A stretch of 39,026 bases of DNA from Anaerolineae bacterium (GTDB lineage: Bacteria; Chloroflexota; Anaerolineae; UBA4142; SHND01). Within the stretch, counting starts at the first letter, position 1; the number at the start of each line of letters is the position of its first letter. Under the pieces are notes generated by a model that worked only from the letters and a program-made list of their open reading frames with translations, made no database searches and had not been told where the DNA came from. Below are positions 13,063-39,023 of the stretch, piece after piece. Made by a program: the position numbers and the translations under genes. Location: positions 1-39,026 of the forward strand of contig JAJTXZ010000046.1 of NCBI GenBank assembly GCA_021463195.1, in the 5' to 3' direction.

Positions 13063-15459
13063 ATGAATTATCAAATCCTCGGGAACAACTATCAGCGCAA
13101 AGACGGCATTGGCAAAGTGACCGGCAGCGAAACGTACACTTCGGACGTGATTCTGCCGCGCATGTGGCACGCGCGCGTCTTGCGTTCGCCTTACGCGCAC
13201 GCGCGCATTATTTCGATTGACCAAACCGCCGCCAAAGCGTTGGGCGCGGTGGTCTTGACCTATGCCGATGTGCCGCATTTAAAATACAACGAGCGCATCG
13301 TCAGCATTCCGCCGCATTTATTTCGCGATCGCACCGTGTTAGCGGACAAGGCGCGCCATGTCGGCGAAGCCGTCGCCGCCGTCGCCGCGCCGACCGAACA
13401 ACTCGCGGAAAAAGCGCTGCGCGCGCTCAAAATCGAATGGGAAATTTTGCCGCATTACACTGACCCCGCCGACGCGCAAAGCGAAAACGCGGAACCGATT
13501 CACGACGCGGTATTGTTGAACGGCGAAATGAAACCGATTGAGAACAATGTCGCCGTCGCGCGCACTGTAAATGTCGGAAACGTTGACGAAGGATTTGAAC
13601 ATGCGGATTTTATTTTCGAGCGCGAATATCTGACGAGCCGCATTTATCACGCGCAGATGGAAACCAAAAGTTGCGTCTGCGATCCCGCGTCCGACGGTTC
13701 GATTACGGTTTATCCCACCACGCAAAGCATTCACAACACGCGTCAACTGCTCGGCGAAATTTTTAACATTCCGCTGCACAAGGTCAATGTCAAACGCGTC
13801 GCTATCGGCGGCACCTTTGGTTCTTCGATTCAGATGAATTCGATTATTCCGATTTGCGTCGCGCTCGCGCTCAAAGCAAAGCATCCGGTCAAATTGGTTT
13901 CGACGCGCGAAGAAGATATGTACGACCATGTGCGTTATCAAACTAAATTGAAATTGAAAATCGGCGTGACGCGCGACGGCAAAATCACCGCAGGTCACAT
14001 TCAAGCGCTTGCCGATGTCGGCGGACACAACATTCAAGCGTACGCCCTGCTCTCGGTCCTCGCGGGCTGGAGCGCATCGCTCTACAAATTTCCGCATCTC
14101 CGCTTTGAAGGCAAGGCGGTGTACACGAACAAAACGCCGTCGTGCGCGATGCAAGGATTCGGCAATCCGCAAGCGACCTTTGCGATGGAATCATTGACCG
14201 ATGAAATCGCGCATGAACTTGAGCTTGACCCGATTGAATTCAAATTAAAAAATTATGTCGGACTCGGCGGCACGTTTTGGGGTCAGGGTCCTTCGGTGCA
14301 ATCTATTATTCGCAGCGACGGCGTGCCGCAGTTACTCCACGACGGCGCGCAAAAAATCGGTTGGCGCGCGCGACCCAAAGCGGGAACGCAAACAGGACGT
14401 TATCGGCACGGCATCGGCATGGCGCGTGGGTTTCACACCAGCGGCGCGGGCGCGCCGAAACCGGGCGAAGTGATTGATTATTCCGGCGCATTCATCAAAA
14501 TCAATGAAGATGGCACGGTGGATGTCGTTCACGCCATGATGGACCACGGCGGCGGGACGCTTGAAGCAATCGCCAAAATCGTCGCGGAAGAATTGGGCGT
14601 GCCGATTGAGAACGTGGGCATCTCGCCCGCCGACACCTTGACGACGGTGTACGATGTCGTCACGCACGCGACGCGCGGCGTATACGCGGGCGGCGGCGCC
14701 GCGCACAAAGCGGCGCTAAAAGTGAAACAGCAAATTTTCGAGTACGCGTCGCGCGTGCTAGAGCTGCAAGCCGATTCGCTCGTGATTGAACCCGATTACG
14801 AATTGAGGCAGGGCGTCATCTATTGCCCGAATTTTCCCGAACGACGCATCACGCTCGGCGCGCTGGCGAAACAGTTGCAAATCAATTCATGGGGCACCAT
14901 GGCAGCGGTCGAAAGTTTGCGCCAAGTGAATTGTCCGCCCGCGTTCGTCACCTATTTCATTGACCTCACCGTTGATACGGAAACAGGACACGTCACCACA
15001 AACCGCGCGGTCATCGGCAGCGATTGCGGCACGGTCGTCAATCCCGCGATGGCAATCGGACAACTCGAAGGCGGACTTTCCAAAGGAGTGGGTTACGCGC
15101 TCGTCGAAGACAATCAATGGGACGCGCAGACCGGACAACTCACGTCAAAAGGTTTTTGGATTGACGGCAAAACGCCCGCCATCAGCGAAGCCCCGTTTAA
15201 CGAAAACATTATTACGCATTTTTCTGACACCTACGAGCCGAGCGGACCGTTCGGCGCCAAAGGCATTGGCGAAGCGGCGACGAATCCCTGCGCGGCGGCA
15301 TACGCGAACGCGTTGTACAACGCGCTGGGCATTCGTTTCACGGAATTGCCGATTACGGCGGAAAAGATTTTGAGGGCGCTAAACGCGGAAGAGAATCGAG
15401 AAGCGAGAGTCGAGATGCGAGAGATGGAAGCGATGGCGGTGATGCAGGCGGCGGAGTGA
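13063..15459 (+). CDS. Molybdenum hydroxylase large subunit 1 (xanthine dehydrogenase/CO dehydrogenase family)
   Basis: This 798-residue Moco-binding catalytic subunit has the usual two-part layout (Ald_Xan_dh_C then MoCoBD) and opens with GKVTGSETYTSDV. The base-catalyst Glu is retained as E737 in GAKGIGEAATNP. The Glu equivalent to bovine Glu802 appears retained in REEDM (283-287). Two signatures deviate. GGGFGGK is GGTFGSS (249-255). The RGFG arginine (Arg880-type in xanthine oxidase) is Gln364 in MQGFGNPQ. This suggests a substrate other than xanthine, by inference from the bovine enzyme. ATG 13063 with an ACGGGAG motif upstream is preferred over TTG 13012, which would start inside the operator. 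First of six genes in the operon. Confidence 0.9.
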   Translation: MNYQILGNNYQRKDGIGKVTGSETYTSDVILPRMWHARVLRSPYAHARIISIDQTAAKALGAVVLTYADVPHLKYNERIVSIPPHLFRDRTVLADKARHVGEAVAAVAAPTEQLAEKALRALKIEWEILPHYTDPADAQSENAEPIHDAVLLNGEMKPIENNVAVARTVNVGNVDEGFEHADFIFEREYLTSRIYHAQMETKSCVCDPASDGSITVYPTTQSIHNTRQLLGEIFNIPLHKVNVKRVAIGGTFGSSIQMNSIIPICVALALKAKHPVKLVSTREEDMYDHVRYQTKLKLKIGVTRDGKITAGHIQALADVGGHNIQAYALLSVLAGWSASLYKFPHLRFEGKAVYTNKTPSCAMQGFGNPQATFAMESLTDEIAHELELDPIEFKLKNYVGLGGTFWGQGPSVQSIIRSDGVPQLLHDGAQKIGWRARPKAGTQTGRYRHGIGMARGFHTSGAGAPKPGEVIDYSGAFIKINEDGTVDVVHAMMDHGGGTLEAIAKIVAEELGVPIENVGISPADTLTTVYDVVTHATRGVYAGGGAAHKAALKVKQQIFEYASRVLELQADSLVIEPDYELRQGVIYCPNFPERRITLGALAKQLQINSWGTMAAVESLRQVNCPPAFVTYFIDLTVDTETGHVTTNRAVIGSDCGTVVNPAMAIGQLEGGLSKGVGYALVEDNQWDAQTGQLTSKGFWIDGKTPAISEAPFNENIITHFSDTYEPSGPFGAKGIGEAATNPCAAAYANALYNALGIRFTELPITAEKILRALNAEENREARVEMREMEAMAVMQAAE

Positions 15460-15555
15460 TGCCAAGTTATGCAAAACGCGAAAAACGGGAAACACAAATT
15501 AAACTCGAATAATTTCTGACCGACGAAAATCCAAATTAAAATCAAAATTTCCCTC

Positions 15556-17158: not shown

Positions 17159-18031
17159 ATGCGTGAATTTGATTTACTCCAACCCAAAACATTGAATGAC
17201 GCGCTTGAAGCGCTCGCTCAAAATAACGCGACGATTCGTCCGCTCGGCGGCGGCACCGATATGCTCGTGGACTTGCGCGCCCGCCGCGTCCAACCCGATA
17301 CGCTGGTGGCATTGCAAGGGGTGAACGAATTGCGCGGCGTCACGCGCGCAAACGGACACCTTCACGTCGGCGCGTCCACCACGATCGCGGAAATCTTGAA
17401 AAATCCGCTGTTCGCGCCATTCAACGCGCTGCGCCAAGCCGCGTCTGTTTTCGCCAATCCGATGATTCGTAACAGCGCGACGATTGCGGGCAATATCGGC
17501 AGCGCGTCACCCGCCGGTGACATGCTTCCGCCGCTGCTCGCGCTCAACGCGCAAATCGAACTCGTCAGTCGAAACGAAACGCGCGTAATGCCGCTGTCCG
17601 AATTTTTTCTCGGTCCGCGCAAAACGGCAAAGCGCGCGGATGAGCTGATTTCCAGTATTCAGTTGCTAGTAACCAGTAACCAGTCTCCAGTCTCTAATCC
17701 CCAATCTTCCGCCTTTTACAAACTCGGGCTTCGCCAAGCCGACGCGATTTCATTGGTCAGCGTCGCGGTCTGGCTCGAACGCGATGGCGAAAAAATCCGC
17801 GACGTGCGAATCGCGTTGGGCGCGGTTGCCCCGCGTCCGATGCGCGCGACCCGCGCCGAAGAAATTTTGCGCGGACAAATTTTTTCCGAAACGAACCTTA
17901 AAGAATCCGCGCGTATCGCTTCTACAGAATGTTCACCCATCAGCGATTTGCGCGCAAGCGCGGATTATCGGCGGCGGATGATTGCGGTGTATGTGCGCCG
18001 AATGATAGAACAAGCGTGGCAGCATTTTTGA
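17159..18031 (+). CDS. Molybdenum hydroxylase FAD-binding subunit 2 (CoxM family) with in-frame heptamer insertion
   Basis: This 290-residue FAD subunit belongs to the second molybdenum hydroxylase. FAD motifs are RPLGGGTDMLVDLR (about 27-40) and TIAGNIGSASPAGDMLPPLL (about 113-132). The C-terminal domain includes RIALGAVAPRPMRA and a final DYRRRMIAVYVRR helix. Residues about 171-184 (TSNQSPVSNPQSS region) are encoded by six tandem heptanucleotides at 17668-17709. The family normally goes straight from an ELI..I strand to a FYKLGLR-type strand here, so the stretch looks like a repeat inserted in a surface loop in multiples of three. ATG 17159 is chosen because the domain begins at MREFDLLQP; the upstream open frame overlaps the preceding gene. 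Confidence 0.88.
   Translation: MREFDLLQPKTLNDALEALAQNNATIRPLGGGTDMLVDLRARRVQPDTLVALQGVNELRGVTRANGHLHVGASTTIAEILKNPLFAPFNALRQAASVFANPMIRNSATIAGNIGSASPAGDMLPPLLALNAQIELVSRNETRVMPLSEFFLGPRKTAKRADELISSIQLLVTSNQSPVSNPQSSAFYKLGLRQADAISLVSVAVWLERDGEKIRDVRIALGAVAPRPMRATRAEEILRGQIFSETNLKESARIASTECSPISDLRASADYRRRMIAVYVRRMIEQAWQHF
17668..17709 (+). repeat. Six-unit heptanucleotide array inside a coding region
   Basis: Units in order are AGTAACC, AGTAACC, AGTCTCC, AGTCTCT, AATCCCC and AATCTTC. The total of 42 bp equals 14 codons, so the reading frame is kept. The units are graded variants of each other, as in slippage-derived arrays. Confidence 0.85.
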
Positions 18032-18106
18032 TTTTAGATTTATGATTTCTGATTTATTCAATCAAATCGCAAATCATAAATTCCAAATCCCAAATCATAA
18101 ATCCCC
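18030..18106. repeat. Eleven-unit heptanucleotide array with head-to-head symmetry
   Basis: Four GATTTNN-type units (18030-18057) are followed by a switch unit and six AATCNNN/AATTNNN-type units (18065-18106), the reverse complement of the first type. GATTTATGATTT (18037-18048) has an exact inverted copy AAATCATAAATC at 18092-18103, so the RNA can fold into a 12-bp hairpin. The array runs from the FAD-subunit stop codon to 1 nt before the iron-sulfur-subunit ATG. Confidence 0.85.
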
Positions 18107-18107
18107 A

Positions 18108-18581
18108 ATGACCCCCAAACTTGTCAAACTCAATGTGAACGGACGCGCGCATCACACCGCGCTCGCGCCCAACACAACTCTTTTGCACGCGCTCCGCGAT
18201 TTGGGTTATACCGATGTCAAAAGCGGCTGCGAAAAAGGCGATTGCGGCGCGTGCGGCGTAATAGTGAACGGCGCCGTCGTCAATTCGTGCTTGCTGCTCG
18301 CGTGGTTGGCGGATAATCAAGAAATCATCACCGTTGCGGGATTGGGCGCTGCCGCCAAGCCGCATCCGTTACAACAAGCATTCGTGGATTTCGGCGCGGC
18401 GCAGTGCGGCTTTTGCACACCCGGCATGATCATGTCCGCCAAAGCGCTGCTCGACGAATATCCGCATCCCACCGACGAACAAATGCGCGAAGCATTATCC
18501 GGCAATTTATGCCGCTGCACCGGTTACACGCGCATCTTTGAAGCGGTTCAAAACGCGGCACACGAGATAACAAGCGATTAG
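18108..18581 (+). CDS. Molybdenum hydroxylase [2Fe-2S] subunit 2 (CoxS family)
   Basis: This 157-residue iron-sulfur subunit belongs to the second enzyme. Plant-type cluster ligands are C41, C46, C49 and C61 (GCEKGDCGAC...SC). The second cluster uses C100, C103, C135 and C137 (QCGFCTPGMIM...NLCRCTGY). Both sets are complete. ATG 18108 (MTPKLVKLNVNG) is chosen over an in-frame ATG at 18042, because the 22 extra residues would be encoded entirely by the heptamer array. No Shine-Dalgarno motif is visible; the array occupies its place. It is followed after 101 bp by the second large subunit. Confidence 0.92.
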   Translation: MTPKLVKLNVNGRAHHTALAPNTTLLHALRDLGYTDVKSGCEKGDCGACGVIVNGAVVNSCLLLAWLADNQEIITVAGLGAAAKPHPLQQAFVDFGAAQCGFCTPGMIMSAKALLDEYPHPTDEQMREALSGNLCRCTGYTRIFEAVQNAAHEITSD

Positions 18582-38949: not shown

Positions 38950-39023
38950 TGTCATTTCGAATGCAATGAGAAATCTCGTTTGACGCGCAAGGTCGAGATT
39001 TCTCGCCTCCGCTCGAAATGACA
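38950..39023. repeat. Dispersed imperfect inverted repeat at the window end
   Basis: The left arm (38950-38978) reads TGTCATTTCGA... GAGAAATCTCG and the right arm (38994-39023) is its near-exact reverse complement, around a 15-nt centre. The ends TGTCATTTCGA and TCGAAATGACA with inner AGAAATCTCG match a noncoding repeat type seen in many environmental genomes. The 79 bp between the last gene and this repeat hold the promoter at 38881 and otherwise nothing recognised. Confidence 0.75.

Follow-up and report, generated by a model that had tools for sequence, protein, structure and literature searches.

The array of six heptamers inside the CoxM-type gene studied here is, with a probability that we would put at roughly 70%, a coding copy of a 7-bp repeat that is dispersed across the whole lineage, and which would have grown by a slippage-type process in tolerant loops while being filtered for reading frame. 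Several parts of this reading can be seen directly. The unit family occurs genome-wide, in-frame arrays lie in unrelated conserved genes, the same loops carry different heptamers in different species, and the reading frame is kept.

The stretch of DNA analyzed (39,026 nucleotides, hereafter “the window”) is contig C85 of the genome that we call G000, a 4.72-Mb assembly in 143 contigs. All gene calls are our own and combine open reading frames with a codon model. An initial annotation of the window has been only partly upheld: its in-frame array and its suggestion of selection for frame are both supported, whereas its 14-residue insertion and its off switch are not, and its placement of the array in the C-terminal domain needs correction.

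The CoxM-Type Gene and Its Array

The gene (Table 1) belongs with the CoxM-type subunits, since it combines PF00941 with PF03450 and is adjoined by genes for the 2Fe-2S and molybdopterin subunits. Direct reading confirms six in-frame heptamers (AGTAACC, AGTAACC, AGTCTCC, AGTCTCT, AATCCCC, and AATCTTC; 42 bp), which in the frame of the gene encode VTSNQSPVSNPQSS, the Ser/Asn/Gln/Pro-rich stretch that had been described. The array had been placed between two strands of the C-terminal domain; by Pfam it is instead located in the linker that separates FAD_binding_5 from CO_deh_flav_C. When it is read in the YYARTNN register, the first two units double as codons for the native strand SIQL. The array is impure, with five distinct units among the six, and because its units differ Tandem Repeats Finder returns it only in pieces (17668-17684 and 17680-17694). 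A structure prediction from five sequences reached a mean pLDDT of 40.7 and was set aside.

Table 1. Coordinates of the CoxM-type gene, its domains, and its heptamer array in the window
Feature	Position	Strand	Evidence
CoxM-type FAD-subunit gene (molybdenum hydroxylase medium subunit), 290 aa	17159..18031	+	PF00941 1.6e-46, PF03450 1.8e-28
FAD_binding_5 domain (PF00941), residues 3-169, upstream of array	17165..17665	+	Pfam
Array in YYARTNN register, 8 units	17652..17707	+	
Six-heptamer array, in frame	17668..17709	+	direct reading
CO_deh_flav_C domain (PF03450), residues 186-286, downstream of array	17714..18016	+	Pfam

Immediately downstream, inverted GATTTNN/NNAAATC heptamer arrays (18024..18109) take up all the space from the CoxM stop codon (18029-18031) to the start of the following gene (18108), both of which this inverted pair overlaps. 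Elsewhere in the window, the tandem-repeat listing gives short repeats with a period of 7 or 14 at 2787-2849 and 15391-15423, and one with a period of 12 at 15526-15549.

The CoxM Linker Across Relatives

The CoxM protein of the window was aligned with 13 homologues, and 25 linkers (6 from the genus and 19 others) were then scored. Within the genus, the linker has 19 residues in G000, 22 in G005, 13 in G001, 22 in G003, and 15 in both G004 and G002; in the 19 other homologues it has 11-13. A linker of 13-22 residues in the genus as against 11-13 elsewhere means a net gain of about 6, so the pure 14-residue insertion that had been proposed is rejected, and the alignment gap relative to the solved CutM flavoprotein 1ffv_C is likewise six residues. 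On these alignments, the array would have displaced most of the native linker. We also looked among the linkers compared for an equally long one that lacks repeat character, and no homologue has it.

Period-7 scores of these linkers are 0.86 in G000 and in G005, 0.81 in G001, 0.76 in G003, 0.67 in G004, and 0.29 in G002; thus four of the six genus members score at least 0.76, compared with none of the 19 other homologues, all of which score 0.67 or less (the 0.67 being a C-rich stretch in G033). The G005 linker holds nine units of the YYARTNN family and encodes VISYQSPVSSLQSPVSS, and it has in common with G000 the order AGTAAYC then AGTCTCC. That of G001 consists of degenerate YYARTNN heptamers and is of ordinary length, G003 uses a different heptamer family (CGTCCTT/CGTCGTC), G004 has a short heptamer trace, and the linker of G002 has no heptamer array. 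Occupation of this loop is not general, since the CoxM-type linkers of heptamer-rich genomes outside the genus (part of the 19 others) hold no array in 6 of 6 cases.

Purine-Synthesis and CoxL-Like Genes

A 13-kb purine-synthesis cluster of the same genome (G000:C122:20001-33000) is a hot spot that contains about fifteen period-7 tracts, several of them in frame inside conserved genes. In-frame arrays are found in PurH (NLQSPISNPQSPISNLQSP), PurD, PurQ, PurL (at two sites), and a CoxL-like gene, the last having its insert at the same site in G000 and G001. PurH, PurD, and PurQ are named by sequence recognition; PurL alone was checked, against solved structures. At the site, the PurQ of G001 exceeds those of G000, G003, and G004 by 21 residues (nine units); these three are equal in length, with a YYARTNN loop in G000 only and AAAATCG units in G003. 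In PurD, the position of the G000 array is taken in G001 and G003 by a segment that looks native. Other in-frame repeats occur in PurH of G003 and G001 and in PurM of G001 (an NVGAxVHPRP palindrome with an 18-bp tandem; a 15-bp tandem, CACPP).

Among the matches listed, G000 has a single full-length PurL copy, the other matches being short and to the array. We compared 18 PurL genes, from 5 genus members (G003 and G004 being counted as such), 6 other heptamer-rich genomes, and 7 heptamer-poor genomes of the class; the genomes were picked by pattern counts, with 12 rich ones tried and 6 matched, and 16 poor ones tried and 7 matched. At a cut-off chosen after the scores were known, a period-7 score of at least 0.71 was found at site 1 in 10 of the 11 genus and rich genomes versus 0 of the 7 heptamer-poor ones, and at site 2 in 9 of 10 versus 0 of 7 (G005 is without site 2, as its contig ends). 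The exception at both sites is G004, and the seven heptamer-poor genes score 0.57 or less at both. Fisher's test gives P values of 0.00025 for site 1 and 0.0004 for site 2, with phylogeny ignored and orthologous sites that are non-independent. At periods 5, 6, 8, and 9, the genus and rich genomes stay at 0.62 or below; the heptamer-poor genes include one with 0.81 at period 6 (G026) and one with 0.71 at period 8 (G047).

The units at these PurL sites belong to unrelated families: YYARTNN in G000, G001, and G040, TCGAATT in G003, CAATGGT in G039, CACGCAT-like in G009 and G019, and AGTTGGA in G018, while G008 has inverted AATTGG/CCAATT units. Beyond the two sites, high scores (0.81-0.95) also occur elsewhere in the genes of G008, G009, and G019.

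Period-7 DNA Genome-Wide

Far from being private to CoxM, the YYARTNN family is scattered throughout this Chloroflexota (Anaerolineae) genome. A BLASTN search of G000 with the 401 bp that surround the array returned 24 places, and in 22 of them the match is confined to the array region. The pattern ARTNNYYARTNNYYARTNNYYART has 343 matches in the genome compared with 61 for a reversed control (overlapping matches counted). An exact 25-base search of genome_contigs was negative. Tandem 7-nt units run longer than chance, as befits a heptanucleotide simple-sequence repeat. In 433 kb of G000 (the window and 20 stretches) there are 40 period-7 tracts, versus 0 in an order-2 Markov simulation; period 8 has 9 tracts, the remaining primary periods at most 3, and period 14, a harmonic, 20. 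G001 has 27 period-7 tracts against at most 9 for any other period, G005 has 11 against at most 3, and small samples of G003, G002, and G004 have 4, 1, and 0, respectively. Many unit families other than YYARTNN are represented (AACTTTT, GAATTAC, ACGTTTG, and GCATTGT, for example).

We counted 110 arrays of at least three exact YYARTNN units in the 1,030 kb of genus DNA sampled, compared with 0 in three order-3 Markov simulations; the sample is not random, arrays having been the reason for choosing the second G000 set and most of the G001 stretches. A looser detector finds 68 arrays versus 22 in reversed DNA, and we ascribe these 22 to further period-7 families whose units match the reversed pattern.

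The pattern is present in 33 of 60 relatives (own genome included), in 46 of 201 genomes of a phylum sample, and in all but 1 of the 20 genomes that represent the order; in the rest of the class outside the order it is mostly at or near zero. That the exact YYARTNN family is genus-wide is ruled out by G002 and G004, where the pattern has fewer matches than the reversed control (8 vs. 51 and 18 vs. 49). As the control equals or exceeds the pattern in several genomes, a single pattern undercounts the other heptamer families.

Paired Arrays and the Order of Units

Among array pairs no more than 60 bp apart in the G000, G001, and G005 stretches (n = 18), 16 are inverted with one polarity, 1 is inverted with the other, and 1 is direct. 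Within long arrays the units are also ordered: A at the R position increases toward the 3′ end (z 4.7; 5.9 in the G000 and G005 subset), and a trend for NN to be CT is less consistent (z 3.4 overall and about 0 in that subset). Long arrays at unrelated loci carry TCAGTNA-like units 5′ and AATCTCC-like units 3′.

Such regularities are what gives the main rival its weight, namely that the arrays are the arms of a mobile hairpin element, similar to REP or Rickettsia palindromes, that inserts into genes, with the CoxM array as one remaining arm. The shared polarity and the internal unit order common to arrays are in its favor, as are the inverted pairs that lie in frame in PurL of G000, G008, and G009 and the few pairs that enclose REP-like palindromes. 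The arms, however, are no mirror copies of one another (0.777 vs. 0.809 when shuffled, n = 16), a result that also gives no support to template switching as their origin; REP-like motifs occur at 35 places, of which only 2 have an array within 100 bp; and a hairpin element does not explain unrelated unit sequences at one site in different species. Nor does the density of Y1 transposases clearly follow that of heptamers (rho 0.23, P 0.08 in all 60 genomes; rho 0.25, P 0.29 in the order), and we have rejected REP-associated Y1 transposase as the driver. The raw counts do correlate weakly (rho 0.33, P 0.009). We consider a mobile hairpin improbable, at perhaps one chance in five. A large REP-like palindrome (GTCATTTCGA ... 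TCGAAATGAC) is located at the right edge of the window (38951-39013), and similar elements occur in other contigs.

Reading Frame

Two of the three frames through the window array contain stops, and the sole open one is that of the gene. In the genus, the CoxM frame is open through the linker in 6 of 6 orthologues despite their differing linker lengths, and the selection for frame that the initial annotation had proposed is supported. Its statement that a change of one unit breaks the gene is also borne out, by length arithmetic: gain or loss of a unit leads to 63 or 89 wrong-frame codons and then a stop.

With a 7-nt unit, the number of units does set the frame, and heptamer phase variation is reported from elsewhere; slipped-strand gain or loss of one unit might therefore truncate CoxM after the FAD domain, reversibly. 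We regard this phase-variable off switch as very unlikely. All six genus orthologues are in frame, and the units are impure, whereas a contingency repeat is a pure tract of identical units. Linker lengths do not differ by multiples of seven (the difference between G000 and G005 is 9 bp), and similar in-frame arrays occur in PurL and the other purine-synthesis genes, where switching off would cost.

Strand and Encoded Peptide

YYARTNN arrays internal to open reading frames are sense in 22 cases and antisense in 5 (P 0.0015); within 30 codons of the 3′ end of the frame, 8 are sense versus 19 antisense (P 0.05). One antisense case (L118) resembles chance. Because 7 and 3 have no common factor, a stop-free array encodes the same rotating heptapeptide in any frame, approximately L-Q-S-P-[VI]-S-[NS] on the favored strand and R-L-E-[TI]-G-D-W on the other. 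The former is a polar reading that suits linkers, and the latter is commoner at C-termini.

This strand bias, together with the occupation of the same sites in many species, could be read as a sign that the linker peptide or its RNA is itself selected for a function, for example in docking or as a signal for translation. We hold that to be slightly less probable still than the switch, given that sequence, length, and presence vary freely among congeners, and that the bias is in part an effect of stops, of which antisense frames hold more (187 of 330 array frames, compared with 131 of 330 sense ones). An assembly artefact is hardly credible: repeats do assemble badly, and the pur-region contigs of G001 and G005 end near repeats, but in-frame arrays stand at the same positions in separate assemblies of different species.

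Interpretation

We return to the coding copy of a dispersed 7-bp repeat. Short seeds, in DNA that is intergenic or codes for loops, would give rise to heptamer tracts, which would then grow, turn over, and replace one another by slippage-like events or local duplication, with 7 nt as the favored step. Purifying selection would clear those that break the frame, contain stops, or are badly placed, with unsuitable peptides presumably also screened out. In CoxM, an array would thus have taken over, and slightly lengthened, a tolerant interdomain linker, for which no regulatory role is expected. The polarity of the inverted pairs (16 vs. 1) and the internal order of units count against this account, because simple slippage does not predict them. 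The low pattern counts of G002 and G004, and the six array-free linkers from heptamer-rich genomes, weigh against it as well.

More broadly, and at somewhat less than even odds, it may be the period that is conserved and not the sequence. In the order, and also in certain other families of its class, tandem DNA would continually be made and renewed by a process that advances in 7-nt steps whatever the sequence, so that the same essential-enzyme loops receive unrelated heptamers in each species. Coding loops would serve as long-lived homes, where selection acts on nothing but frame, stops, and the character of the peptide. The repeated occupation of the same essential-enzyme loops, with the period kept while the sequence changes, appears to be novel: a search of open-access papers with few terms returned no description of heptamer arrays in Chloroflexota coding genes, nor of heptamer DNA of changing sequence in the same essential-enzyme loops across genera.

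Why does this matter? A single orthologous site in a protein can be traced from family to family as its repeat changes in sequence but not in period, with the frame recording which changes survived, and the source of the seven-base step therefore becomes directly testable. It should also be remembered that essential-enzyme loops in such genomes can be derived from repeats, and they should not be taken for functional insertions.

Comparison with Known Systems

Several comparable repeats have been described. Among them are the TAACTGA direct repeats of Beggiatoaceae, Cyanobacteria, and Bacteroidetes, which are genome-dispersed, mostly intergenic just before start codons, and mostly peripheral when within open reading frames, where the reverse strand is tolerated and encodes LSVISYQ (PMC4679880). 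As in those genomes, the heptamers here are dispersed; the reverse complement TCAGTTA fits YYARTNN, and the CoxM linker of G005 contains VISYQ. The window array has no TAACTGA or TCAGTTA unit, and other arrays of the genus have it. Unlike the TAACTGA repeats as that text presents them, arrays here also lie in the middle of genes for conserved enzymes, and the CoxM array is internal to its gene and not before a start codon.

The GGGGA(T/C)T repeats of Nostoc and the GGGAATC repeats of Xanthomonas are degenerate and genome-wide, about a third being intragenic in Nostoc (PMC4692102). Intragenic copies are common to both Nostoc and our genome, and the window unit AATCCCC is the reverse complement of GGGGATT; most units here, however, have no G-run, so quadruplexes are not expected. 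A further difference from these repeats, as described in that source, is that here a single protein site keeps the period while its unit families are unrelated. Heptamers also occur in the trnL intron of Nostoc, where one site in the P6b stem is occupied by either of two families, one class having supplanted the other on several occasions (PMC4476775). Replacement of the unit family at a single site is thus common to both systems, in an RNA stem there and in a protein-coding loop here.

Rickettsia palindromic elements are dispersed repeat DNA found in frame in unrelated functional genes (cited in PMC3733652), and in this respect the present arrays are similar; unlike those palindromes, the array in CoxM consists of one arm, and inverted pairs are formed by only some of the other arrays here. 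Finally, Mrazek and others (2007, in PMC4679880) are reported to have found heptamers to be the commonest long simple sequence repeats, to have proposed polymerase slippage, and to have found that coding regions are likeliest to hold units whose length is divisible by three. The length of DNA held by the polymerase has been proposed as one cause of the seven-base preference (reported in PMC4679880 and PMC4692102). The period-7 preference seen here agrees with those long repeats, whereas the presence of 7-nt units in coding loops sets the present genomes apart.
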